From an uncultured Haliea sp. (GTDB lineage: Bacteria; Pseudomonadota; Gammaproteobacteria; Pseudomonadales; Halieaceae): a stretch of 34,124 nt of DNA. Shown piece by piece: positions 7,959-27,382 of this stretch. The stretch lies in NCBI GenBank assembly GCA_913062625.1, contig CAJXWP010000024.1:1-34124 (forward strand), given 5' to 3'. How positions within the stretch are numbered: position 1 is the first letter of the stretch; each line of letters opens with the position of its first letter. A program made the position numbers and the translations under genes. Below the pieces are notes generated by a model. It made no database searches and was not told the origin of the DNA. It saw only the letters and a program-made list of their open reading frames with translations.

Positions 7959-8527
7959 CAGGGCTGCTGGCGCACGATTTCTTTGATCACAATCGCCTGC
8001 TGGGGTACGTCGCCCATGCCTTTGACGTTGCCGGTCTCCGCTGTGGCGATGAAGTCCACGACGTCCATGCCCTGGCGAACCTCACCAAAAACAGCATAGC
8101 CTTGGGTCCTGGGAGCCCAATCTAGGTTCAGGTTTGAGCGTAGGTTGATGTAAAACTGTGAGGTGGCTGAATTAGGATTATTAGTGCGGGCCATGGCGAG
8201 TGTACCCCGCGTGTTGTGCAACCGATTTTTCGATTCGTTGATAATAGGGTCCGAGTTTTCCTTCTCGGTCATGTCGGGTAAGAAACCTCCGCCCTGAATC
8301 ATAAAATTGGAAATGACTCTGTGAAAAATCGTGCCATTGTAAAAACCACTGTCCACGTAGCTTAGAAAGTTTGCAACGGTGATCGGAGCTTTATCGGCAA
8401 AAAGTTCCACAGTCATATCCCCTTCGCTGGTTTTGATAACAACAAAGGGGTTGGCTGGCGCGGACTCATCGGCGTGGGTGATTGCCGGCAGCATTAGCGA
8501 TAGACAAATTAGCAGTAATTTAAACAT
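7958..8527 (-). CDS. Cyclophilin-type peptidyl-prolyl isomerase, exported (PpiA-like)
   Basis: 189 residues with a Sec signal peptide (MFKLLLICLSLMLPAITHAD, cut after ITHA) and one cyclophilin domain. Active-site blocks are FHRVISNFMIQGGGF (catalytic Arg, Phe and Gln), LAMARTNNPNSATSQFYINL and YAVFGEVRQGMDVVD. It should speed prolyl isomerisation during folding in the periplasm. In place of the Trp or Leu typical of eukaryotic forms, the C-terminal block reads LDWAPRTQGYAVFGEV, as usual for bacterial PpiA. The gene starts 28 bases after the SH3-domain gene and its stop overlaps pdxJ, so it is part of a minus-strand chain. Confidence 0.92.
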   Translation of the reverse strand: MFKLLLICLSLMLPAITHADESAPANPFVVIKTSEGDMTVELFADKAPITVANFLSYVDSGFYNGTIFHRVISNFMIQGGGFLPDMTEKENSDPIINESKNRLHNTRGTLAMARTNNPNSATSQFYINLRSNLNLDWAPRTQGYAVFGEVRQGMDVVDFIATAETGNVKGMGDVPQQAIVIKEIVRQQP

Positions 8528-8555: not shown

Positions 8556-9230
8556 TTAAGCCCAGCTGGACATTTTACGTCGTTTTGGTATTAGGCGGGG
8601 TGCCACTAGGGCAATAATGACCCCTAGTAATACGGCCATAGCACCGTTTATGAAGTCTTCACTTTCGAGCCTCTCTTGCAGCCGCAGACGCTCTGCCTCA
8701 AGCATTTCTACATCTGAGCGCAAGTTCTCCGCTTCCTCCACTAGCCTGCGATTGTTTTGGTCCAGTTGTACTGACCTACTGGAAATTTTCTTTAGCTCAT
8801 GCAGTTCGCGGGAGACAGTATTCAACTCGAAATCGCTTGCGGTGACTTGGCTAATGAGTTCGTCTCTTTCGGTGTTGAGAGTCTCCAATTCAGTCGCCAT
8901 ATCGAGACTTTCGGACCCCGTTTTTTCAGCTTCTGCGGTGATTGCCGCCAGTTTCAGTCGCGCCGGAAGATCTGGCATGAGGAACTGAGGTTGAATCCAA
9001 CCGGTGTTGCCGTTTTCCATAGTGACTTCTGACCACGATCCATCAGCAAGGGAGCTGTTAACCGTAAGGCGGGTTCCTGAAGGAATGCCGCGATGAACGA
9101 TACGGTAATTATTTCCAGCGCCACTGCGCAAGGGAACAAACTGTTTGTCACTGACATAGCGTATCTCCGCAGCGGCAGTGGAGACCGAAAAGAGTAATGA
9201 GAGCAGCAGTGCAGATACGTAGGGTCGCAA
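8556..9230 (-). CDS. SH3-domain, coiled-coil, membrane-anchored protein (TIGR04211/YgiM type)
   Basis: About 224 residues from a TTG at 9230, chosen because AAGGA sits six bases upstream and the signal peptide (RPYVSALLLSLLFSVSTAAA) begins there; the longer open frame to 9293 adds 21 residues without signal. Order: signal peptide, bacterial SH3 domain (RYVSDKQFVPLRSGAGNNYR through GWIQPQFL), a coiled coil of about 95 residues rich in E, L and R, then one C-terminal membrane helix (AMAVLLGVIIALVAP) and a basic tail (KRRK). This is the YgiM-like architecture. SH3b domains typically bind peptidoglycan; the exact role is unknown. It lies between yciI and the cyclophilin in the same orientation. 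Confidence 0.88.
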   Translation of the reverse strand: MRPYVSALLLSLLFSVSTAAAEIRYVSDKQFVPLRSGAGNNYRIVHRGIPSGTRLTVNSSLADGSWSEVTMENGNTGWIQPQFLMPDLPARLKLAAITAEAEKTGSESLDMATELETLNTERDELISQVTASDFELNTVSRELHELKKISSRSVQLDQNNRRLVEEAENLRSDVEMLEAERLRLQERLESEDFINGAMAVLLGVIIALVAPRLIPKRRKMSSWA

Positions 9231-13823: not shown

Positions 13824-14253
13824 AAAGACCAAGGCTGTGTGAGCGATTTTCTGATTTTCTACAATAGGAAAAACTAGCCCTAGGGTTTGGGCAGGCCGAG
13901 GGTGGACTAGGTTTCTTGTGATTTGCCTTCTGGCCTATCGGTAGCAGCACGGAACTGCCTGGAAGGCGACTTATTCCAGTCTATGCAGCTCAATTGCTGC
14001 TGCAGTCCGTTAAGGGTCTTCCTATGGCTTTATCTCGCTATGACCATAGATTTTAAGGCCAATATCGGAGCCTACTTCCCCTACGGTACCGCCAAGTATT
14101 TGGAGAGTTGCGATCGATTGTCACTCCCGAGCGCATAGACAGGCGTATGCAGCTTTAGCCCATACCGCACCAGATGAGCTCATCCACTAAGAGAAAATTC
14201 TGCTACTTTTACGCTGAAGCAGAGGAGTTTCACTATGAGTATGTCAAGCAGGT
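13824..14253. other. Non-coding gap before the porin gene
   Basis: About 430 bases between a plus-strand and a minus-strand gene 3' end. The short open frames (13923-14138 plus, 13693-13950 minus) have no ribosome binding site or family resemblance. No terminator, tRNA or repeat was recognised. Confidence 0.5.
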
Positions 14254-15813
14254 TTAAAACGTAATACCGACACGCGCACCGACTACAACCGCATTGGTGT
14301 CGGCACCGCCAACGTTTCGTAGCCACTGCACATCAGGCTGGACGTATAGCCATGGGGTAATATTTGCTTTGTAGAACAGCTCGAAATTGGCTTGATTTCT
14401 TGTTACGTCGTCAGGTCTAACATTGTCTGACGGGCTCATGTAGGTAACGGCAAATCCGATTTCGTCGCTGTCGCGTGTCGGAATCGCGCCGGTGTACATT
14501 GCGCCGGTTGAAAAATACTGATTAATTTGATTCCGACTTTCCGGCGCCCAAGAATATTCGAAAAACATCGTGAGGCCCTCACCGCTTGAGTCAGTCGCTG
14601 ATGGCTCCAGATAAACAGGCTGATCGATCAGCATATACACCCCATAATTGTCACCATACTCTTTGGGGTCGTTGTTTGTGCTCGCTACGATTTCCAATGT
14701 ACTCAGCGTCGTAAACCACGTCGCGAAACGGTAGGTGCCGGCATAACGCTGTAGGCTGGTAGCAGTAATGTCAGTCTCTAACACTGCGATCACATCCCCA
14801 GAAAACAGTCCGCTGTCCTCAAAACTTTTACTTTTGCCATCGAGCTCGGCCCCATAAACACCCGCCCGCAGCGAAAGCCAATTGACTGGGTTGATCTCGC
14901 CGAGGAGACCCAGTGCAGGTTCAGGAAAGGTTGGCACGGGCATATTCGGCGGAGGAGAGATTCCGCCGTTGATGAACTCACCAGTGATATTAGAAGTCGC
15001 GAACTCTGAGTTGGCATCTTGCTTGCCAAATTTCAGCCTACATTTGCCGTTGCACAGGGATTGCTCGTAATAGTACGCGCTCAATTGTGTGAAATCTTTC
15101 GCATCCAATGTGCTGACGGGGGCCAGTGGCCCTCCGACTGCGTCATTAATCTCATTGCCGTCGCCCACCATGTTTTCTAGATAGACGAAAAACGTGCCTC
15201 CCTCCCACCAGTTGAGTTTGCCGCTATCCAGTGTCAGCGTCAGATCCATGTTGCCCAGCCCACTGGTGTCGCCCTTTGAGGGATCGCCACCGTCGACCCT
15301 AGACATAACTTCCGCTGTATAGACCAACTCGAATAGCACACCTTTCTGGGCTAAACGTGGCCTGGTCCCATCCCATTCACCTGTCATGTGCTGCCATTGA
15401 GACCAAGGTATAGGCTGGCTGTTAGCTGTGGCAGCTTTATCATTGACTACTGGGTGTTTTTTGAGAAACCATGGGGAAGGTGACGATTGCTGCATTACGG
15501 GCCGGGGTTGTATCGGTGTCTCTGCCACCAGCGAGCTTGCGACGTCCGATCCTTGCGAATGCTCAATCGGTTGCGTTGTCATCGCAGGGTCGGCTTCTTC
15601 AGCAACTAAGGCCGGGGACGTCAAAATAAGGCAGAGAGCCAATGCTAAAAGAGGATCCATTGAACATAATCGATTTTGTACAGCGGCCAACCAGCCTGTG
15701 GCCGTTGCAGATGGCCGCTCGCGCAGATACAGATTCGCAGTCAGCCTATGGCAGCTGCGAGCTACTGGACGTTGAAGGTGATTCATTCGTCGGCTGTTCA
15801 ATGTGAAGTTCAT
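14254..15813 (-). CDS. OprB-family (carbohydrate-selective type) outer-membrane porin
   Basis: 519 residues from the first ATG, or 468 from an internal ATG at 15660. The PF04966-type entry motif MTGEWDGTRPRLAQKGVLFE with LVYTAEVMSRVDGGD is clear, followed by alternating beta strands (LENMVGDGNEIN, LKFGKQDANSEFA, FFEYSWAPESRNQ) and a C-terminal strand ending in Phe (VVVGARVGITF). A normal signal peptide (MDPLLALALCLILTSPALVA) starts only at residue 52. The true start may be 15660, although it lacks a good ribosome binding site, whereas 15813 has GAGAAAGAG. A Pro/Gln-rich linker follows the signal. It is divergent from the multicopper oxidase across a strong Fur box, so the cargo may be metal-related rather than sugar; that is inference. 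Confidence 0.85.
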   Translation of the reverse strand: MNFTLNSRRMNHLQRPVARSCHRLTANLYLRERPSATATGWLAAVQNRLCSMDPLLALALCLILTSPALVAEEADPAMTTQPIEHSQGSDVASSLVAETPIQPRPVMQQSSPSPWFLKKHPVVNDKAATANSQPIPWSQWQHMTGEWDGTRPRLAQKGVLFELVYTAEVMSRVDGGDPSKGDTSGLGNMDLTLTLDSGKLNWWEGGTFFVYLENMVGDGNEINDAVGGPLAPVSTLDAKDFTQLSAYYYEQSLCNGKCRLKFGKQDANSEFATSNITGEFINGGISPPPNMPVPTFPEPALGLLGEINPVNWLSLRAGVYGAELDGKSKSFEDSGLFSGDVIAVLETDITATSLQRYAGTYRFATWFTTLSTLEIVASTNNDPKEYGDNYGVYMLIDQPVYLEPSATDSSGEGLTMFFEYSWAPESRNQINQYFSTGAMYTGAIPTRDSDEIGFAVTYMSPSDNVRPDDVTRNQANFELFYKANITPWLYVQPDVQWLRNVGGADTNAVVVGARVGITF

Positions 15814-15931
15814 AACTCTTTCTCATGCGCGCGCTAGTGATGTACCGTGTCGCTGCGCTTTTTGGCGGTGCTGTTGTATTCAACAAGCCCAGCCTTAAAG
15901 TACAGTGCTGTCGGCATCTAAGCCGTTGTCG

Positions 15932-15960
15932 ACGCAAATCATAATGATTATCATTTGCGT
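15932..15960. promoter_or_regulatory. Strong Fur box in the porin / multicopper oxidase divergent promoter
   Basis: A 29-base palindrome with perfect 8-base outer arms ACGCAAAT (15932-15939) and ATTTGCGT (15953-15960). The 15-mer TCATAATGATTATCA (15939-15953) matches 13 of 14 fixed positions of the 7-1-7 Fur consensus. It is about 120 bases from both the distal porin ATG (15813) and the oxidase ATG (16071), so one Fur dimer array could repress both directions when iron is plentiful. Confidence 0.85.
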
Positions 15961-16070
15961 TATCAAGAAGTTATTACTATACTCCTCGCGAAATGTTGCT
16001 ACCGCTGCGATGGAATAGGCCAAGCAACAATTTCACTTCTTTTAGTGTTGATAGTCTCAAGGAGATTTTG

Positions 16071-17645
16071 ATGGCCCCACGCAGTCTTTGTTTACTTCCA
16101 ATCCTGCTGATACTTCTGAGCCCGGCGGCACAGACAGCAGACGAGCGGCCTCTATTTAAAAGCCCACCTGATATCAGCAGCAAAGATGGATCGTTGACGG
16201 TCGAACTCACGGCTGAATCTCGGACAATAGAAGTTGGCGGAAAGCAGGTGACGACCTACCTCTACAACGGGCTCTTTGCTCCTCCAACGTTACACGTGCG
16301 CCCAGGCGATAAGCTAATACTGAAGCTCAACAATCAACGTGATAGCAATACAAACCTGCATTATCACGGCACCAATGTATCCCCCAAAGAACCGCAAGAT
16401 AACGTGTATATCCGCGTTGCTCCAAAAGAAAGTTATCAGTACGAGGTCGACTTTCCGAAAGATCATCCGCAGGGACTTTTTTGGTATCACCCTCATTGGC
16501 ACGGCACAACCGAGTATCAGATTGGGGGTGGGATGTCTGGATTGTTGAGCGTCGACGGTGTTTTGGACCCATGGCCCGAACTAAAGGGCATTACTGAACG
16601 AGACATCATTCTGCGCGACATCCAGATCGTCAACGGCAAGGTGCCTAATCCGCCAGATCCTGGCAACCCCACAATGCGGACCGTAAATGGGTTAGTCAAT
16701 CCTACGATTCCAATCCGTCCCGGTGAAGTTCAGTTTTGGCGAGTCGGAAACATTGGTGCAGACATTTTTTATGATCTGGAGATCGAAGGACACAAGATGT
16801 ACGAAATTGCACGCGATGGTATCCGGCACAATCAGCCGGTAGTCTATGACACGCTGCTGCTTCCAACCAGTGCACGCACTGAGTTTCTTGTGGTGGGAGG
16901 GGAAGCAGGCGAATATGTATTTAGAACACGCGAGATTGACATGGGTCCGGCGGGTGACCCGCATCCTAGAACAACGCTAGCGACGTTGGTGTCTAGTGGT
17001 GAAAAGGAAAAACATAGTATTGACCTACCGCAGGTCTTTCCTCCGTTGGATGACCTACGCGAAGTGGATGTCTCTTGTGAACGAGCCATAGATTTCTCTG
17101 AGACGAGTGACGGAAGTCAATTTTGCATAAATAACGCTGGTACCGACATGAATATTGTCAATACGACGGTGCGCATTGGCGGCGTTGAGGAATGGACGAT
17201 TAACAATTGCTCAGCAGAAAACCATGTGTTTCATATCCACCAACTACAGTTTCAAGTGATCAAGAAAAACGGCAAAGATGTGCCGTTTACAGGCCTTCAG
17301 GATACCGTTACCGTGGACTTTCGATCCGTCAATAAGGACAACGCAGATCGCTGCAAAGTCGATGAACAAGGTAATGCTTCCGACTGTACTTGCCCTACCG
17401 ACGAGGACCCATGGGGCTCGGTTGTTCTGCGTATTCCGTTCACTAACCCGATCATCGAAGGTAAGGCAATATACCAGTGCCACATCGGCGAGCACGAGGA
17501 CAATGGAATGATGTCAACCATCGAGATGTCGTCCTCTGCGGGACAGTGTGAAGCCGGCACGCCGTCGTCTATCGATAGGTTCAAGCTGTCCTCTAAAGAG
17601 CGCGCGGTGTGTAAGCCACGAGTCGCCCACGGGCACAGTATGTGA
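16071..17645 (+). CDS. Secreted multicopper oxidase
   Basis: 524 residues from ATG 16071 (AAGGAG seven bases upstream); the longer open frame to 15993 lacks a ribosome binding site. Sec signal peptide APRSLCLLPILLILLSPAAQ, then cupredoxin domains. Copper motifs in order: HYHG (residues 97-100), HPHWHG (140-145), HVFHIH (385-390) and QCHIGEHEDNGMM (469-481). The last motif is normally HCHxxxHxxxxM, so the first His, a type 3 copper ligand, is Gln here. Type 1 ligands (H385, C470, H475, M480) are intact. A Cys-rich insertion (CKVDEQGNASDCTCPTDED) precedes the last motif. Such enzymes couple oxidation of Fe(II), Cu(I), Mn(II) or phenols to O2 reduction. The Fur box favours a ferroxidase-type role; this is inference. 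Confidence 0.9.
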   Translation: MAPRSLCLLPILLILLSPAAQTADERPLFKSPPDISSKDGSLTVELTAESRTIEVGGKQVTTYLYNGLFAPPTLHVRPGDKLILKLNNQRDSNTNLHYHGTNVSPKEPQDNVYIRVAPKESYQYEVDFPKDHPQGLFWYHPHWHGTTEYQIGGGMSGLLSVDGVLDPWPELKGITERDIILRDIQIVNGKVPNPPDPGNPTMRTVNGLVNPTIPIRPGEVQFWRVGNIGADIFYDLEIEGHKMYEIARDGIRHNQPVVYDTLLLPTSARTEFLVVGGEAGEYVFRTREIDMGPAGDPHPRTTLATLVSSGEKEKHSIDLPQVFPPLDDLREVDVSCERAIDFSETSDGSQFCINNAGTDMNIVNTTVRIGGVEEWTINNCSAENHVFHIHQLQFQVIKKNGKDVPFTGLQDTVTVDFRSVNKDNADRCKVDEQGNASDCTCPTDEDPWGSVVLRIPFTNPIIEGKAIYQCHIGEHEDNGMMSTIEMSSSAGQCEAGTPSSIDRFKLSSKERAVCKPRVAHGHSM

Positions 17646-17707
17646 ACCTAGAGTTAAAGATCATCAACGTTTAAGCCAATGGGTATCGTGAGGCGCAAAC
17701 CAAGCAG

Positions 17708-17726
17708 CGTGCACTCAGTGTGCACG
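17708..17726 (+). promoter_or_regulatory. Hairpin between the multicopper oxidase and RSH genes
   Basis: CGTGCAC (17708-17714) and GTGCACG (17720-17726) form a perfect 7-bp stem with a 5-base loop. It lies in the 172-base gap after the oxidase. There is no T-tract, so it may be an mRNA-stabilising end, a weak pause or an operator rather than a terminator. Confidence 0.35.
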
Positions 17727-17817
17727 TCGTATTGCACGCTACAGTGACTGTCAGATAGCGGTATTGTCAGCGCTATTAAACAGCACCCAGCAAGATGGAA
17801 GATCAAGGATAAAAGCG

Positions 17818-19776
17818 ATGGCCAGTTTGGCGGGCATTATAGAAGCGGTAGTAGATAATCATCCTCAAGCAGATGCTGAGCTGATCGAGAGAGCCTATGC
17901 GTATGCAGCGCATGCGCAAAATGAACCGCGGAATTCATTAGAGGACAGGTGTTTTGTTCATCGCGTCGCTGTTGCTGACATTTTAGCAAACATGCGTCTC
18001 GATGCTGCTACCGTTTGCTCGGCACTGCTGCACGACGTTGTCGAAAACGGTATCGCGAATATGGGGGAAATCCACAGGGAGTTTGGAGCGGACATTGCAT
18101 TTCTTGTGGATGGCGTTACCAGACTCGATAAGTTCAGCTTTTTGCCTTACGAGGATAGGGATGAGGATGAGGAAGCCGAGAGCTTCCGTAAAATGCTGTT
18201 GGCGGCGTCCAGCGATATTCGAGTCGTACTGGTAAAACTGGCCGAGCGGCTAGACAGCATGCGGACACTTGGAGCGATAGAAGCGTGTGCGCAAAAACGC
18301 ACTGCCACAGAGACGCTAGAGATTTACGCCCCCTTGGCTGAGCGTCTAGGAATACAATGGTTAAAGGCTGAGCTGCAAGACCTCAGTTTTCGCTACCTGG
18401 AGCCTGAGGCATTCAGCGCTCTCGAGGCCACGGTGAGTAGTTTGGCCGAGAGCACTGACCACTGCGTTACTGAGCTGACCGAGCAGATAAAGAGTGTGTT
18501 GTTGAAAAAGGGACTGTCGGTCCGGGTCAGTGGTCGGCGAAAGCACCTGTATTCGCTACAACAGGAAATGCGCAACAGTCACCTAACCTTCGATGAAGTT
18601 CAGGACTTTATTGCATTTCGAGTCATCACGAATTGCGTTGCCGACTGTTATGCGTCCCTGAGCGTCATTCAATCTGAATGGGAACCGCTGCCTGAGCGTT
18701 TCAAAGACTTTATCGCATTGCCGAAGTCAAACAAGTATCAATCGTTACACACGACGGTCATCGAGCCCGGAAAGAAAGAGGTAGAGATTCAGATCCGCAC
18801 CGACAAAATGCATACAACAGCAGAGTATGGTGTCGCGGCCCATTGGTTGTACAAAGAGCATTTAGGTGGCGTCGACCCAAAGGATGTAGCTCGCTTCGCA
18901 TGGTTGCGCCAGCTTACCGAATTTCAACGTGCCGGCGGGGATGCGCCACCGGTGCGAGAAAGTCTCCCCTTTGATCCATTTCCCGAGGATGTTTATGTGC
19001 TTACACCCAAAGGCGATGTAAAGAATTTCCCGCGCGGAGCGACTCCGATAGATTTCGCCTATGCAGTTCAAACTGATTTAGGCCATCATTGTGGGGGCGC
19101 ATGGGTCAACGGTACCATCGTGCCGTTGCGGTATAAACTACAGAACGGCGACGAGGTTCATATTCTTACTCACAAGAGTAATCGGCCAAGTGAACATTGG
19201 CTTGAATTGGTTGTCACATGTCATGCTGAGTCTAGAATACGCGCCTATCTGTGCGTTGAAGATCAGCCCAAAGCGGTACGTCAGGGACATGACCTTTTGG
19301 ACAAGGAGATGCACCGACACAAAATCTCGCCGCTGCGTTTCTGGACGAGCCAGCATGCTAAAGATGTTCTTGATAGGTTGGATGCAGGTAACGCGCAACA
19401 GCTTTATGCCCGCATCGGAATCGGTGATTTGTCTATGTCTGCGGTTATGAATGCGATAAGACCACAGCACAAGGGACGTCTGCCAAAAGCAGTGTCAAGC
19501 ATCACGGAACGGCCTGTTCGGGTCGAGCGGCACTCCAGTCAGACTGACCAACTGAGTGTCGAAGGGATGAACGACGTGCCTGTCCGTCTGGCTAAGTGCT
19601 GCACGCCTATACCGGGGGACATTGTAGTCGGCTGGATCACGCACAGTCGAGTCGTGTCGGTTCACAAACAAAGGTGCCCAAGTCTATTGGAACTCGACCC
19701 TGAACATAGGGTTCAGGTGTCATGGGACGAGGCGTTTTATAACGCCGTCTCCGGCCGTTCTGTGGCTGAGAAATGA
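17818..19776 (+). CDS. Long RelA/SpoT homologue, synthetase intact, hydrolase altered, no ACT domain
   Basis: 652 residues from ATG 17818 (AAGGAT eight bases upstream); a TTG at 17764 would add 18. Domains: HD hydrolase (about 30-170), (p)ppGpp synthetase (about 230-350), TGS (391-450), helical region, CC/zinc finger (AKCCTPIPGD, C594 and C595). The protein ends there, without the ACT/RRM domain of full-length Rel, RelA and SpoT (about 700-745). Synthetase signatures are present: SGRRKHLYS, DFIAFRV, RFKD (RXKD, the bifunctional type, not RelA EXDD), YQSLHTT, EIQIRT. In the HD domain H48, H72, D73 and E76 remain, but HDVVED reads HDVVEN and KLADRLHNM reads KLAERLDSM (D to E as in RelA, N to S). 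The TGS AYAVHT motif reads AYAVQT. Probably a synthetase-biased RSH. Confidence 0.92.
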   Translation: MASLAGIIEAVVDNHPQADAELIERAYAYAAHAQNEPRNSLEDRCFVHRVAVADILANMRLDAATVCSALLHDVVENGIANMGEIHREFGADIAFLVDGVTRLDKFSFLPYEDRDEDEEAESFRKMLLAASSDIRVVLVKLAERLDSMRTLGAIEACAQKRTATETLEIYAPLAERLGIQWLKAELQDLSFRYLEPEAFSALEATVSSLAESTDHCVTELTEQIKSVLLKKGLSVRVSGRRKHLYSLQQEMRNSHLTFDEVQDFIAFRVITNCVADCYASLSVIQSEWEPLPERFKDFIALPKSNKYQSLHTTVIEPGKKEVEIQIRTDKMHTTAEYGVAAHWLYKEHLGGVDPKDVARFAWLRQLTEFQRAGGDAPPVRESLPFDPFPEDVYVLTPKGDVKNFPRGATPIDFAYAVQTDLGHHCGGAWVNGTIVPLRYKLQNGDEVHILTHKSNRPSEHWLELVVTCHAESRIRAYLCVEDQPKAVRQGHDLLDKEMHRHKISPLRFWTSQHAKDVLDRLDAGNAQQLYARIGIGDLSMSAVMNAIRPQHKGRLPKAVSSITERPVRVERHSSQTDQLSVEGMNDVPVRLAKCCTPIPGDIVVGWITHSRVVSVHKQRCPSLLELDPEHRVQVSWDEAFYNAVSGRSVAEK

Positions 19777-19928
19777 GCGACGCAATCAGTGTGCATAGCG
19801 CGCTCTGCAGCAGTCGCGACAGGGACAGCGCTGGCTGCCTCAGGGCAAAATCAATTTGGCGACAGAGGCTGTCACGGCTCGGCGTGCGGGGCCTGTCCTC
19901 AGTCGGTTTCGCTGAGCCAGTAGCGTGA
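19773..19928 (+). CDS. Possible 51-residue coupled ORF between RSH and MFS genes
   Basis: The ATG at 19773 overlaps the RSH stop (ATGA) and its TGA at 19926 overlaps the MFS GTG start (GTGA). It fills the whole 150-base gap between the two genes. The product is Arg/Ser-rich (MSDAISVHSALCSSRDRDSA, then GCLRAKSIWRQRLSRLGVRG) with no family or membrane segment. The double 4-base overlap supports real translation, or at least a coupling path to the MFS gene, which has no ribosome binding site of its own. It could also be a decayed remnant of the missing RSH C-terminus in another frame, though no ACT-like pattern is seen. Confidence 0.4.
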   Translation: MSDAISVHSALCSSRDRDSAGCLRAKSIWRQRLSRLGVRGLSSVGFAEPVA

Positions 19929-21271
19929 AGCAAGACCCTATATATGGTGTCACAGCAGTGGCCGAAGAAGACGAAAACATCGACGCCGCAGATCGCCGGG
20001 ACAGCTGGAACTATTTTATTTTTGTTTTTCAGGGAATCGTCGCAAGTGCATCGAAGTCGATTGGAAGTCCTCGTCTTCTGCTTCCTTATCTATACGTAGC
20101 AACCGGCGCGCCGGTCTTTTTAGCGGGAGCACTGATCCCGATCGTATCGGCTTCGCGACTGATTAGTCAGATCGTTGGGGCGCCCTATGTGAGCGCTGCT
20201 AGCACAAGAAAGTGGATATTATTCATCGGCTGGATGGCAGCCGCAATTGGCCTCGCTGTAGCCGGCTTAGGTGCAAGAGGCTCTAACCATTGGGCACTGA
20301 TGGCAGTCTTCATCGGTGCGTCATTAGCACTGGGTTTCTCTAAGGGTCTTAACGGTCTCGCGTTCAATGACCTAATGGCGCTCAACATTAACAAATCACG
20401 CAGAAATTCTGGAGTGTTCTTCATGTCTGCGGCGGGAGGCTTTGTTACCATTGGCGTCACGTGGTTCACGCATTATCTTTCATCGGGTGAAGACACGATC
20501 GACCATTACATTAATTTAGCGTTTAGTGCAGCCTTGGTAACTGCATTTGCCGCAGTCATTATTCTATTCTTTCGCGAGACCAGTGCTCCGATAACAGCTC
20601 GGCAGGCGAAGCACGGCACTGACGTCTCAGGCCAGTCGGTCAAGCCCAGTTTTGTTGCTCGACTGCAGAAGTTTCGCGATGTACTTCGATTAGTCTGGTT
20701 TCGTCGCTACCTGTACATGCGATGCCTGACTGCTGCTGTTGTTCTGGCCATGCCATTCTATGCGGTGCATGGCGCTACTCATCACGTCCATAAAAATGCG
20801 GCCGGGCTCAGCATATTCGTGGTGGCAACCAGCGTGGCGGCGATCATTTGCGGGCCTTTGTGGCAATGGCTGGGTAAACGATCACAGCGCTTGTCTATGG
20901 CGCTAGGATCAATTTTTGTGGGCTTGGGAGGTGTCTGGGCCTTGACGATTGAACAAGTGGAGTCACTCCAAACCGTTTTCGCTCACTCTTTGGTGTTTGC
21001 ACTGGCGGCGGGTGGGATTCAGGCTGTTAATGGTTCCCGCGTGCTGTTTTTGATCGACGCGGCACCGAAAGAAGAACTCACTTACTATGTTGCTGTGACA
21101 AACACGGTTAGTGCTGTTCTCGCACTCATTTTGGCAAGCTTCTTCGGCTATATTGCCCAAATACAGGGGGTGCACTGGCCGGTAGTCTTAGTTGTTATCT
21201 TATGCTTTATGGCGGCAGCCTATTCTTTGAGCTTAAATGATCCTCCTCCCGAGGGTGAGACAGGCACATAG
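19925..21271 (+). CDS. MFS-type transporter
   Basis: 448 residues with about 12 membrane helices, starting with a soluble acidic segment (MKQDPIYGVTAVAEEDENID). The first helices contain SWNYFIFVFQGIVASASKSI and PYLYVATGAPVFLAGALIPI; a cytoplasmic signature FSKGLNGLAFNDLMALNINK resembles the loop between helices 4 and 5 in some poorly characterised MFS permeases. A soluble loop (about 215-250) splits the two six-helix halves, followed by RRYLYMRCLTAAVVLAMPFY. GTG 19925 is the start by overlap with the preceding small ORF. It is the last gene before a strong terminator. Substrate unknown; a metal-linked or siderophore-linked cargo is suggested only by the operon context. Confidence 0.8.
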   Translation: MKQDPIYGVTAVAEEDENIDAADRRDSWNYFIFVFQGIVASASKSIGSPRLLLPYLYVATGAPVFLAGALIPIVSASRLISQIVGAPYVSAASTRKWILFIGWMAAAIGLAVAGLGARGSNHWALMAVFIGASLALGFSKGLNGLAFNDLMALNINKSRRNSGVFFMSAAGGFVTIGVTWFTHYLSSGEDTIDHYINLAFSAALVTAFAAVIILFFRETSAPITARQAKHGTDVSGQSVKPSFVARLQKFRDVLRLVWFRRYLYMRCLTAAVVLAMPFYAVHGATHHVHKNAAGLSIFVVATSVAAIICGPLWQWLGKRSQRLSMALGSIFVGLGGVWALTIEQVESLQTVFAHSLVFALAAGGIQAVNGSRVLFLIDAAPKEELTYYVAVTNTVSAVLALILASFFGYIAQIQGVHWPVVLVVILCFMAAAYSLSLNDPPPEGETGT

Positions 21272-21300
21272 TTACTGAGTCTATGTGCCTGCTCTTTTTT
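21261..21300 (+). terminator. Strong intrinsic terminator after the MFS gene
   Basis: A perfect 11-bp stem, CAGGCACATAG (21261-21271) with CTATGTGCCTG (21281-21291) around a 9-base loop, then CTCTTTTTT. The MFS stop codon TAG (21269-21271) lies inside the left arm. It marks the 3' end of the oxidase-RSH-MFS run and separates it from the convergent ferritin gene. Confidence 0.93.
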
Positions 21301-21361
21301 GCAGCTTGATATTCACATCTTCTCTGGCTGAGACGTTCCCAGCGGTCCGTTAGTTATCGTT

Positions 21362-21871
21362 TCAGCTCTGTTCGCTTTCGCTTCCGATCATCTGTTTAAG
21401 CTCGTGATCAAAGTGATACAGGCCTTGCCCATCCATTCCAATAATTCGGATTTTGTCAAGAATGGACTTGGACAACATTTCCTCTTCATGCTGCTCGGCC
21501 ACGTACCACTGCAGGAAGTTAAAGGTGGAATAGTCCTGCTCAGTAAAAGCGAGATGCACGAGCTCATTAATCTTTTTCGTGACAATGAGTTCGTGTGCAT
21601 GGGTTTTTTCAAAGATTTCCTGCACTGACGCAAATTGCGTGGGTGGGGCTGCAATTTGTCCCAGCTCAGCCATTGCGCCACATTCGTTCACATAGGTGAA
21701 TAGACGTTGCATATGATTCATCTCGTCCACTGCATGATCCCGAAGGAAAGACGCTGACCCCTCCAGTCCCTGATTTGAGGACCAGGAACTCATCTGTAAA
21801 TAAAGATTGGATGAGTAAAACTCAAGATTGATCTGATCATTGAGACACTTAATGATTTTCGTACTTAGCAT
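21362..21871 (-). CDS. ftnA: Non-haem ferritin (FtnA-like)
   Basis: 169 residues, the normal ferritin length, forming the four-helix bundle of a 24-subunit iron store. Ferroxidase-site residues are visible: E in QINLEFYSSNLYLQ, E and H in AVDEMNHMQRLF, E in THAHELIVTKKI and EQHEEEM. The C-terminal DGQGLYHFDHELKQ is typical of bacterial ferritins. No haem-ligand Met of bacterioferritin was seen. AGGGAGC lies before the ATG (21871). It is monocistronic and convergent with the oxidase-RSH-MFS run. No Fur box is seen directly upstream, as expected since ferritins are commonly controlled in the opposite direction. Confidence 0.95.
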   Translation of the reverse strand: MLSTKIIKCLNDQINLEFYSSNLYLQMSSWSSNQGLEGSASFLRDHAVDEMNHMQRLFTYVNECGAMAELGQIAAPPTQFASVQEIFEKTHAHELIVTKKINELVHLAFTEQDYSTFNFLQWYVAEQHEEEMLSKSILDKIRIIGMDGQGLYHFDHELKQMIGSESEQS

Positions 21872-22414
21872 AACTTGCTCCCTGTGCAGTGAAATAAATA
21901 ATCGGTCTTTAAATACGTTTCATTCAAAATTGCAGCAGAGCCGCTTTCCTCGGTTCTAAACCAGGAAGGAGAGTGGTTGCCCCCTTGTTAGTGGGGATTT
22001 GCCCACCTAGCAGGCGGCAAACCGAATGGACTGTTTGCAGTGCCACTTACTGGCTGATCATGACCACCATAGTTGGAGATGCCAAACTGCACGTATAGAA
22101 CCGGTCATAATGTGCACACGAACACTAATTTGGCTGGAGTAACAACTGTCTCAAAACTATAACGGCGTCGACCGCTTTAAACGTATATGCGAATGATAAC
22201 CATTAGTATTTAAAGATGCAAGTGTGTAAGCTGAAGGCCGCCGCTTGGTGGCAACCAACACGGCGCCCCCGCCTGCACAACTTTCGCGGGCGATATTCAG
22301 TAGGCTGAAAAGTCCAAGTCGGCTCTTTGCCCGTAATCGTATGACTAGGTTTTTAATTATATTTGTGGTGCATTGACTAAAAGCAGCAGCACTTTATTAC
22401 CAGAGGCGAAGACG
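21872..22414. other. Divergent intergenic region between ferritin and DUF6607 genes
   Basis: About 540 bases without a gene. It must contain the ferritin promoter on the left and the DUF6607 promoter with a Fur-like box (22194-22208) on the right. Between box and gene there are about 200 bases of leader containing several short GC-rich inverted segments (around 22235-22295). No known riboswitch was recognised. Confidence 0.6.
22194..22208 (+). promoter_or_regulatory. Fur-like box upstream of the DUF6607 gene
   Basis: The 15-mer TGATAACCATTAGTA matches 11 of 14 fixed positions of the 7-1-7 Fur consensus, flanked by AA on the left and TTT on the right. It lies about 205 bases before the ATG at 22415, so the leader is long. 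It is the third Fur-like site within 10 kb. Confidence 0.5.
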
Positions 22415-23545
22415 ATGGCGGCAAAAAAATGGCGAACGGGTGTAATGGTAATGGTGTTGGGAACAGTGTTCGCGTCGCGTGTGGTCATGTCAGATGACAT
22501 TAGCGTAAATGAACCACGGCAGTTCACATTTTCTTGGCCGTATACAGATAAAACTGACATGGCACCACGGGGAGGGAGCAGTCGCGGAGCGCCTGTAGGG
22601 CTGGCGAAGTCCACAGGAGAACAGTGGACTCGTCTCAGGGCGCCTGGACTGACAGATAAAGAACGCGACCGCTTCGCTATTCTGGCAATGGCAGGGCCCT
22701 ATCGAGCGAGTTTTGACTTTATCGAAACAATCGGGTTCGTTGAGGGCTATGTTCCTGCTGCGCCTTACCAAAGTTGGGGTACGGAGTTTGTCTACGTAGT
22801 GACAGACGAGCCTGACTTTATAAGTTTACAGCACATTATGGTACTTAGATTCGACTCTAGCGATGGGACGCCTGCGGAACCTATGGTCATTAAGCACTGG
22901 CGACAGGATTGGCGCTATGAGCAGCGGCGGATGCATACCTTTCATGGCAATCTCACCTGGAAGCTCGCTAAACAGTCACGCGCGGAGTCCAGAGGTCGGT
23001 GGGTTCAGTCCGTATATCAAGTGGATGACTCACCCCGCTACATGGCTGCTGGCCGCTGGCAACACCGTGCTAATTTTTCCAGTTGGACCAGCGATGAGAC
23101 ATGGCGTCCTTTACCGCGGAGAGAATTCAGTGTGCGCAATGACTACGATGCTCTTATTGGAACGAATAGACATACTATAACGCCTAGCGGCTGGGTTCAG
23201 GAGGAGTTCAATTTGAAAACGGTCCTAGACGATGAGGGCGCAGTTAGTGAGATTTTGGCGCGGGAAAATGGTGTAGCGCGGTATGAGCGTATCAGCGGCT
23301 ATGACTGGCGGGCGGGCGATGAGTACTGGAAGCGAACAGCGGATTTTTGGGCGATCACGCGGGACGTGTGGGCTAACTATTTGCAAGATGAACACACCCT
23401 CAGGATTCGAAAGACCGAGGAGGGTATACCGCTATATGCGGCTATGTTCGAAATGGCCGAAAGTTCACAAACTGCAAACCTAGATTCTAACGCTACCCGC
23501 GATGCGATTAGACAAATGCTGCAGCGCTATATAGACGAAAGTTAA
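22415..23545 (+). CDS. DUF6607 family exported protein
   Basis: 376 residues from ATG 22415 (AGAGGCG nine bases upstream); a TTG at 22373 would add 14. The N-terminus AAKKWRTGVMVMVLGTVFAS is a signal peptide. Family-like blocks are FDFIETIGFVEGY, DFISLQHIMVL, PMVIKHWRQDWRYE, WVQSVYQVDDSPRYMAAGRW, PLPRREFSVRNDYDALIGTN and GWVQEEFNLKTV. The role of this family is not established; members are periplasmic or lipid-layer associated and I recall them near iron and TonB genes. The Fur-like box upstream fits iron-limited expression. No stop or frameshift. Confidence 0.82.
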   Translation: MAAKKWRTGVMVMVLGTVFASRVVMSDDISVNEPRQFTFSWPYTDKTDMAPRGGSSRGAPVGLAKSTGEQWTRLRAPGLTDKERDRFAILAMAGPYRASFDFIETIGFVEGYVPAAPYQSWGTEFVYVVTDEPDFISLQHIMVLRFDSSDGTPAEPMVIKHWRQDWRYEQRRMHTFHGNLTWKLAKQSRAESRGRWVQSVYQVDDSPRYMAAGRWQHRANFSSWTSDETWRPLPRREFSVRNDYDALIGTNRHTITPSGWVQEEFNLKTVLDDEGAVSEILARENGVARYERISGYDWRAGDEYWKRTADFWAITRDVWANYLQDEHTLRIRKTEEGIPLYAAMFEMAESSQTANLDSNATRDAIRQMLQRYIDES

Positions 23546-24609: not shown

Positions 24610-25175
24610 GAGCGACTGAACATCTACATTAGTTTAGCGACGGAAAAACGTGTCCACAGGACTATTATAACGCCATTGGCCTGCCACTTTAAACGCCCTT
24701 TAAGTATAAGCGGGATAAACACTAACTTTACTTCCAATCTATTACAAACAGCAGACTGTAGACAACCATTGATCGCGGTCCAGGCTATTAACTTGTGTTA
24801 TAAATGGATCACATGGTCATAAACCACCCGTTAGCGTCGTGTCTTTTGCCAGAGAAACTTTCTTAAACGATATATGGCTCTGCCAGCCTCTTCCTTGAGC
24901 AGCATAAATCATCACATTCACTGTAATGGTTAATAGTCGAAGAGACTTGCTCGAGGCGGAGCTCGAGGTTCTGATAGCTGATTTCCTGAGGCTGGTGCCG
25001 AGAATTTGGTATTCAGGTAATCAAGGATTTTTTAATGACCAGTCGGTCTTCAATGCTAGCGACAATTCTCACTGCTTTGCCGGCAGTAAAACTCCAGCGA
25101 CGCATCCAGATTACTGACTCTGACCATGGCGTGTCGATAACGCATTATTTATTCCTGTGTAAAAGTTTTAGTGAG
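24610..25175. other. Gap holding repeat copy A and the GST promoter region
   Basis: About 565 bases. It contains repeat copy A (24702-24926). The rest (24927-25175) has a plus-strand open frame of 63 codons without ribosome binding site or family resemblance, not called. No terminator was found after the SDR gene. Confidence 0.5.
24702..24926 (-). repeat. 225-bp direct repeat, copy A
   Basis: Matches 27158-27382 over 225 bases with about 16 mismatches and no indels (about 93% identity; constant offset 2456). On the minus strand it carries a degraded form of the small ORF seen whole in copy B: ATG at 24912 reads MIYAAQGRGWQSHISFKKVS and then meets a TGA where copy B has Trp. It starts 93 bases upstream of the GST ATG. 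Confidence 0.9.
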
Positions 25176-27157: not shown

Positions 27158-27382
27158 AAGTATAAGCGAGATAAACACTACCTTTGCCACTAATCTATTA
27201 CAAACAGCGGACTGTAGACAACCATTGATCGCGGTCCAGGCTATTAACTTGTGTTATAAATGAATCATATGGCCATAAACCACCCGTTAGCGTCGTGTCT
27301 TTTGCTAGAGAAACTTTCTTAAACGATATAGGGCCCTGCCAGCCTCTTCCTTGAGCAGCATAATTCATCACATTTCCTGTAA
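27158..27382 (-). repeat. 225-bp direct repeat, copy B
   Basis: Second copy of the repeat at 24702-24926, same orientation, upstream of the CurA-type gene (57 bases before its ATG). Together the copies bracket the SDR/oxidoreductase pair. The ends are not inverted repeats of each other, so this is not a simple IS or MITE. Confidence 0.9.
27198..27368 (-). CDS. Small ORF inside repeat copy B, probably a gene fragment
   Basis: 56 residues beginning MNYAAQGRGWQGPISFKKVS, then LAKDTTLTGGLWPYDSFITQ and VNSLDRDQWLSTVRCL. AGGA lies seven bases upstream of the ATG and the sequence has good protein character. The copy-A version has a stop at Trp32 and mostly amino-acid-changing differences, so at least that copy is not under selection. 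No family recognised. It may be the N-terminus of a larger ancestral gene. Confidence 0.35.
   Translation of the reverse strand: MNYAAQGRGWQGPISFKKVSLAKDTTLTGGLWPYDSFITQVNSLDRDQWLSTVRCL

Follow-up and report, generated by a model that had tools for sequence, protein, structure and literature searches.

As a rule, long RelA/SpoT homologues (RSHs) are regarded as housekeeping enzymes that sense starved ribosomes, and the monofunctional RelA among them is marked by an ExDD charge motif; the small alarmone synthetases RelP and RelQ are single-domain proteins under transcriptional control. The long enzymes Rel, RelA and SpoT share HD, RelA_SpoT (SYNTH) and TGS domains in this order and usually end in an ACT (RRM) domain, with rare exceptions, among them the RelA of Francisella and Methylotenera and the Rel of Elusimicrobium (PMC3153485). 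In the TGS domain a histidine stacks on the 3' CCA of the tRNA, its replacement (H420E/H432E) abolishes activation by deacylated tRNA, and the same replacement counteracts the toxicity that deletion of the RRM (ACT) confers on RSHs through ribosome-driven overproduction (PMC7058999). Here, a third type of long RSH, termed RSH3, is described in a stretch of 34,124 nucleotides from an uncultured Haliea sp., a genus of Halieaceae in Gammaproteobacteria (contig CAJXWP010000024.1 of assembly GCA_913062625.1, hereafter the window), in which it stands in a probable operon with a laccase-like multicopper oxidase (MCO) and an MFS transporter, behind a Fur-like box and a divergent porin. Published titles already link (p)ppGpp to iron homeostasis, and the idea of such a link is not new; what seems to be new is that a re-wired long RSH is physically linked to a Fur box.

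The draft genome to which the window belongs as contig C24 (G000) measures 3.07 Mb and is 96.7 percent complete, and RSH3 orthologues occur in two further species (G009 and G005). The gene most likely starts at the ATG at 17818 and not at the TTG at 17764, because ATCAAGGATAAA and the ATG are both common to the three species; in G009 two stops precede the ATG used, from which the frame is open, and a reading of that copy as a pseudogene was rejected. The protein has the HD, RelA_SpoT and TGS order of the long RSHs, followed as in Rel, RelA and SpoT by helical and zinc-finger parts, and it exceeds the cut-off of TIGR00691 (578.7 against 499.2 bits) and lies far under the equivalog cut-offs of SpoT (500 against 947 bits) and RelA (441 against 728 bits). 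The usual C-terminal ACT/RRM is missing, as a preliminary description of this DNA had reported: there is no ACT match and the protein ends after the zinc-finger part, and it is by this loss alone that RSH3 is likened to the Francisella, Methylotenera and Elusimicrobium enzymes. In a quick tree of 47 rows (LG+G4; 24 of 71 rows, mostly near-duplicates, were left out by hand), the three RSH3 form one group (stem support 100, stem length 1.21 changes per column), which falls with Gram-positive Rel and RelA (SH-aLRT 94), apart from SpoT and outside its clade. On these comparisons of sequence, RSH3 is a deep, separate lineage of long RSHs.

Residues were read from an alignment of the three RSH3 with five RelA and 62 SpoT/Rel rows, in B. 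subtilis numbering, and RSH3 residues are given in the order G009/G005/window. At seven hydrolase positions the 62 SpoT/Rel rows show no variation and each of the three RSH3 has another residue (R44 to N/K/N, Y50 to G/E/C, P54 to R/R/R, D82 to N/S/N, D144 to E/E/E, H147 to D/N/D and N148 to S/K/S), and the intact hydrolase of a SpoT (ED motif, Y, R and HN) is not present. Neither is the pattern of RelA: the five RelA rows lack H53, H77, D78 and E81, which RSH3 keeps, the H-D metal ligands included, and RFKD or RYKD stands in the place of ExDD. Since these invariant residues are changed and since single changes at Y51, E82, D83 or N147 abolish hydrolysis in the SpoT of A. baumannii (PMC9974481; the matching of its positions to B. 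subtilis numbering is our own), the RSH3 hydrolase is very probably dead, having decayed by another route than that of RelA.

The synthetase has fared differently. R241, K243, S247, D264, R269, Y308, H312, the RxKD motif and the ExQxR stretch are all kept, K251E being the exception among the residues examined, and we lean towards the prediction of an active synthetase. The TGS histidine H420 (H432 of E. coli), found in 67 of 67 comparators, is R/Q/Q in RSH3, which thus lacks the residue by which RelA contacts the tRNA 3' CCA and joins a natural loss of the RRM with the loss of the tRNA-reading histidine; activation by deacylated tRNA has quite likely been lost.

The pattern of conservation fits a synthetase that works and a hydrolase under relaxed constraint. 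With domain limits set by us for identity and for the ratio of nonsynonymous to synonymous substitution (dN/dS), identity among the RSH3 proteins is 77-80 percent in HD, 83-92 in SYNTH, 90-93 in TGS, 61-83 in the helical part and 76-89 in the zinc finger; in SpoT of G000 and G005, HD is the most conserved part (96.9 percent). The whole-gene dN/dS is 0.12-0.14 for RSH3, 0.05-0.07 for the MCO, 0.10-0.13 for the MFS transporter and 0.03 for SpoT (G000-G005 only), and such purifying selection means that RSH3 does something.

RSH3 does not stand alone. Porin, MCO, RSH3, MFS and ferritin have the same order and orientation in G009 (locus L033) and G005 (L034), whose contigs C122 and C3 correspond to the public records PKCY01000092 and PKDD01000031, respectively, both titled as Haliea sp. 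metagenome-assembled genomes (MAGs). The order is therefore not unique to this genome, a possibility that the preliminary description had held against itself, and the Fur boxes are conserved with it. In local alignments, protein identity of the window to G009/G005 is 92/91 percent for the MCO, 85/78 for RSH3, 88/84 for MFS, 82/88 for ferritin and 72/71 for the porin. Close MCO, this type of RSH and close MFS co-occur in the same three of 18 genus genomes and were not found apart there, with weak MCO matches (at most 35 percent) in six further genomes and a weak MFS match (28 percent) in one. At E 1e-30 the MCO was found in three of 140 family genomes and, among 369 genomes drawn from the class, in one besides the window's, at 31 percent. 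Unlike Rel, RelA and SpoT, which it further leaves by the missing ACT, the lost tRNA-reading histidine, K251E and the route of hydrolase change, RSH3 shares a probable operon with MCO and MFS, preceded by a Fur box, and among the matches listed none outside its three exceeds 45 percent identity. This holds for the rows listed for 96 relatives, for draws of 390 order genomes (rows at E 1e-128 or better) and 398 phylum genomes (rows at E 1e-133 or better), and for the best 20 of 70 plasmid records; viral contigs gave no match. Two Streptomyces and one Polymorphobacter plasmid carry MCO relatives of 34-38 percent, and no RSH figures among the neighbours listed for their three contexts with annotation, a result that does not extend to nine further MCO loci with weaker matches. 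Distant MFS relatives (at most 31 percent) occur in 45 other genomes of the 390, and no MCO or RSH stood beside such relatives in two annotated plasmid contexts, where the neighbours were HlyD and DUF2955.

A Fur-like palindrome between a divergent OprB-like porin and an MCO-RSH-MFS run had already been described, and gene calls, profiles and box scans bear this composition out; its "13 of 14 consensus positions" is a count that fits palindrome pairs and not positions of a consensus. A 25-base pattern from the palindrome of box 1 found no match with up to three mismatches in 100 shuffles of the window. With a 19-base Fur consensus, the best sites on the plus strand of the window are box 1 (15/19) and box 2 (14/19), three overlapping or other sites at 13 or more rank below both, and 100 simulated windows contain a mean of 0.31 sites that reach 14/19. 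The corresponding scores are 14 and 18 in G009 and 16 and 15 in G005. A sigma-70-like site lies in the same place with a 17-base spacer in the three species (TTGCGT/TATACT in the window, TTGTAT/TATAAT in G009, TTGTAT/TATACT in G005), scoring only 8 or 9 of 12, and its -35 overlaps box 1 in all three; a second candidate at 15926 (9/12) is found in the window only. A conserved Fur box thus overlaps a promoter recognised by consensus only, as expected of a Fur regulon, and a Fur-family protein is present in all five genomes searched; the MCO promoter is very likely under Fur control. One FUR-family protein was seen in G000 and in G006, and a second, weaker match (possibly Zur) in G005, G009 and G012, a difference that could be due to an assembly gap.

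Whether the Fur-controlled transcript reaches RSH3 depends on the gap after the MCO, which is poorly conserved and measures 172-175 bases in all three species. The hairpin previously described there is neither conserved across the three nor above chance, the gap of the window (17646-17817) folding no better than shuffles (141 nt, z -0.04). The suspicion that it hides a promoter was reduced and not removed: no promoter-like site of at least 8/12 was found in the gap of the window or of G009, and one of another type could remain. Gap scan, fold and box conservation favour a single Fur-controlled transcript, and RSH3 is likely to be co-transcribed with the MCO. An alternative would make RSH3 a passenger, which moves with the metal cassette and is read from an iron-independent promoter of its own, with no functional link to iron. 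It gains something from the gap itself, which might hold a promoter of unknown type, and from one weak site (8/12) in G005, overlapping the end of the MCO gene. The empty scans of the other two gaps speak against it, as do the order kept in three species and the absence of separated close genes in the 18 genus genomes, and we consider it unlikely.

The oxidase has a likely signal peptide by eye, and its best solved relatives are laccases. Like CueO, CopA and the Thermus-type laccases it has three cupredoxin domains and most copper ligands; unlike them it is far below the NCBIfam cut-offs (108 against 525 bits for CueO), and one ligand histidine is a glutamine. The last copper motif reads QCH in all three orthologues, where 12 of 12 relatives with letters have a histidine (one row is gapped), so the set of ten copper ligands is not complete, the other three motifs looking so; the missing histidine of the HCH triad is presumably a type-3 copper ligand. 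The best plasmid relatives are Streptomyces proteins at 38 percent, and no relative found outside the group is more similar.

Taken together, the locus may be explained as a horizontally exchanged, Fur-controlled metal cassette with its own alarmone synthetase, an explanation that we put forward tentatively, holding it nearly as likely to be right as wrong. At low iron, Fur would leave box 1, and the divergent promoters would then drive the porin on one side and the MCO-RSH3-MFS operon on the other; the MFS transporter, the oxidase and the porin would serve in the handling of metals or nutrients. RSH3 would be a synthetase-only long RSH, with a dead hydrolase, a TGS blind to uncharged tRNA and no ACT/RRM. 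Owing to these three losses its output would depend mainly on the amount made, and thus on iron by way of Fur, and SpoT would be the eraser. Fur binding, the direction of regulation, (p)ppGpp synthesis and the role in metal handling are points that we infer and did not observe. The coupling of periplasmic metal oxidation to (p)ppGpp output, suggested in the preliminary description, is still a hypothesis, against which the glutamine of the oxidase and the glutamate of the synthetase weigh.

Several further observations weigh against this explanation. K251 is lysine in 67 of 67 comparators and glutamate in all three RSH3, a change that may weaken or abolish synthesis. HD is still constrained, with dN/dS of 0.27, 0.13 and 0.11 in the three pairs against 0.09, 0.10 and 0.09 for SYNTH, and in two of the three pairs HD is better conserved than the helical part. 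TGS, in spite of its lost tRNA-reading histidine, is conserved better than any other domain and must therefore do something. In the zinc finger of the window protein C612, C613, R629 and C638 are kept (D637 is arginine), and the kept ribosome contacts C612, C613 and R629 may mean that control by the ribosome is not wholly lost. Promoter-like sites are no more frequent in 14000-23000 than expected (8 against 9.1), so that conservation is the only support for the promoter at box 1, and the 172-base gap could, as said, contain a promoter of another type. For an oxidase that lacks a presumed copper histidine, ordinary activity should not be assumed. Finally, each of the three carriers is a draft in several contigs, and the titles of two call them MAGs. 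K251E, the changed hydrolase residues and the long stem could also mean that RSH3 makes no (p)ppGpp at all and, being under purifying selection, is kept as a pseudoenzyme for binding of ribosome or nucleotides, or uses another substrate in a new transfer reaction. We regard this as improbable: D264, R241, R269, Y308, H312, RxKD and the ExQxR stretch are kept, and SYNTH is among the most constrained domains of RSH3.

The movement of the cassette can be followed in the relatives. Around the locus G005 and G012 (locus L131, contig C34) are collinear but for one difference: a short spacer of G012 stands where the block is in G005. Two 12-base words, which in G012 are separated by a single base (starting at 9159 and 9172 of L131), are found in L034 at 8049-8060 and from 16133, with a stretch of 8,072 bases between them that holds ferritin-MFS-RSH-MCO-porin. 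At its far end the stretch comes to within about 120 bases of the 3' terminus of tRNA-Ser(GGA), the position of a tRNA-associated island; there is no tRNA in the window or in L033, no duplicated tRNA end was found at the far edge of the block (16-mers, up to two mismatches), and no integrase was recognised by eye among the open reading frames (ORFs) examined, no profile search for integrases having been made. The left border of the stretch is less sure, since box 2 lies outside both words, in about 244 bases without match in G012. We infer insertion in G005 rather than loss in G012, which the comparison alone does not settle. The block sits at another site in the window, where the flank on the left, up to about 12.3 kb, runs collinear with stretches of G006, G012 and G005, in none of which, as far as they extend, the block follows. 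DUF6607 adjoins the block in G000 and G005 and occurs without it in G012; its G005 and G012 copies (L034 6475-7605 and L131 7804-8934) share 95 percent of their DNA with a synonymous divergence (dS) of 0.14, where most other real gene pairs of these genomes have about 0.4-1.3, which indicates a recent exchange of DUF6607.

Divergence points in the same direction between G000 and G009, in comparisons that rest on the gene pairs listed, part of a larger table. MCO, RSH and MFS have 85-87 percent DNA identity and dS of 0.55-0.64, the backbone pairs compared have about 60-78 percent and dS above 1.4 or saturated, with ferritin (dS 1.06) and porin (1.19) in between. Set aside were a sulfotransferase pair of paralogues (26 percent) and the pairs resembling overlapping antisense frames, with very low dS and low protein identity (for example L145.15 and L145.22), and many saturated values came as -1 or nan. 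The divergence supports a transfer from one lineage to another that took in MCO-RSH-MFS at the least; for G000 and G005 the dS of the block (0.68-1.59) resembles that of the backbone, and the block does not stand out by its G+C content. Misbinning of the G009 copy, on a contig of 10.3 kb (C122), is an alternative that could mimic the transfer between G009 and G000; the G005 copy, on a 78-kb contig collinear with G012, and the window, with its flank collinear with G006, are less open to this doubt.

The carriers also differ in their relA. On contig C9 of G000 (locus L145) and in G005 and G012, DNA comparison leaves about 245-300 bases between the cysM side and the mazG side, too few for relA, and the only RelA_SpoT-domain proteins of G000 are SpoT and RSH3. 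G009 has the order cysM-relA-mazG (gene names by eye), and thus RelA, SpoT and RSH3 together, the RelA locus being distinct from that of RSH3. The gap of G000 (contig C9 32593-32894, about 6593-6894 of L145) gave two short tblastn matches to RelA (E 3e-4 and 0.008), near both RelA ends, which are perhaps a relic of deletion; the same search of the cysM-mazG stretches of G005 and G012 gave no match of note. The G006 stretch ends in cysM and is uninformative on relA, with one RSH found in it. RSH3 might therefore be thought to replace RelA, the cassette restoring alarmone synthesis in general starvation to a clade that has lost relA, as the missing gene in G000, G005 and G012 and the pair SpoT and RSH3 of G000 would allow. 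This is very unlikely in our estimate: G009 has all three enzymes (provided that the contig with its block is binned correctly), both RelA and RSH3 are absent from G012, and RSH3, without the tRNA-reading histidine, lacks the input of RelA. Two of the three hosts of RSH3 (G000 and G005) are without relA and so is G012, which has no RSH3; because G009 has both genes and G012 neither, the loss of relA and the gain of RSH3 look like separate events. A doubtful extension of the proposed cassette is that its private synthetase makes the stringent response iron-switched through Fur and horizontally acquirable in a lineage that was already without relA.

The features of the locus are collected in Table 1. 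The ferritin, earlier reported only as lying next door, is a member of the block, and the Fur-like box 2 lies between it and DUF6607. A small ORF between RSH3 and MFS was rejected as a member, being closed by stops in G005 and hence not a conserved gene. The terminator described after MFS folds strongly in the window (-22.3 kcal/mol, z -5.2) and is not conserved in G009 and G005. About 82 bases at the end of the porin gene (14169-14250) recur on other contigs of G012, G006 and G009 (81-84 percent) and are perhaps a small mobile repeat at the edge of the block. Farther on, a dispersed repeat of up to about 380 bases (24703-25082 and 27158-27382), in which no gene was recognised, has copies of about 72-94 percent identity on other contigs of G000 and in G003-G007, G009, G010 and G012.

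Table 1. Features of the RSH3 locus, in coordinates of the window
Feature	Position	Strand	Basis
OprB-family outer-membrane porin, divergent from the MCO operon	14254..15813	-	PF04966, E 9.8e-42; orthologues in the same place in G009 and G005
Fur box 1, Fur-like palindrome between porin and MCO	15932..15960	.	Pattern and consensus scans; aligned in three species
Candidate sigma-70-type promoter of MCO-RSH-MFS	15955..15983	+	TTGCGT-17-TATACT, 8/12; -35 overlaps the Fur box
Multicopper oxidase (MCO), laccase-like	16071..17645	+	PF07732/PF00394/PF07731
RSH3, third-type long RSH: degenerate HD, SYNTH, TGS, helical, zinc finger; without ACT/RRM	17818..19776	+	
MFS transporter, start codon uncertain	19925..21271	+	PF07690; orthologues directly 3' of RSH3
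Intrinsic terminator, in the window only; overlaps the stop codon of MFS	21260..21300	+	Fold energy against shuffles
Non-haem ferritin, part of the block	21362..21871	-	PF00210; NF007638, 206 bits (cut-off 178); kept in all three
Fur box 2, between ferritin and DUF6607	22189..22207	.	Consensus scan; kept in three species
DUF6607 protein, TTG start as listed, ATG further in	22373..23545	+	PF20311

In the titles and abstract beginnings consulted, with subscription papers mostly outside, no described unit of RSH, multicopper oxidase and Fur box was found, and neither was a porin-Fur-oxidase unit or a Fur-regulated ppGpp synthetase of such kind. The nearest parallel in regulation is with RelP and RelQ, like which RSH3 is proposed to have its output set by transcription, and unlike which it keeps the long-RSH frame. 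If the proposal is true, the frame of a long RSH would have been re-wired from the sensing of tRNA to dosing by a metal-responsive repressor, and an iron input to the alarmone would travel between species on a cassette. RSH3 would also offer a natural test of the laboratory finding that loss of the RRM/ACT is toxic unless contacts with tRNA or ribosome are weakened (PMC7058999).

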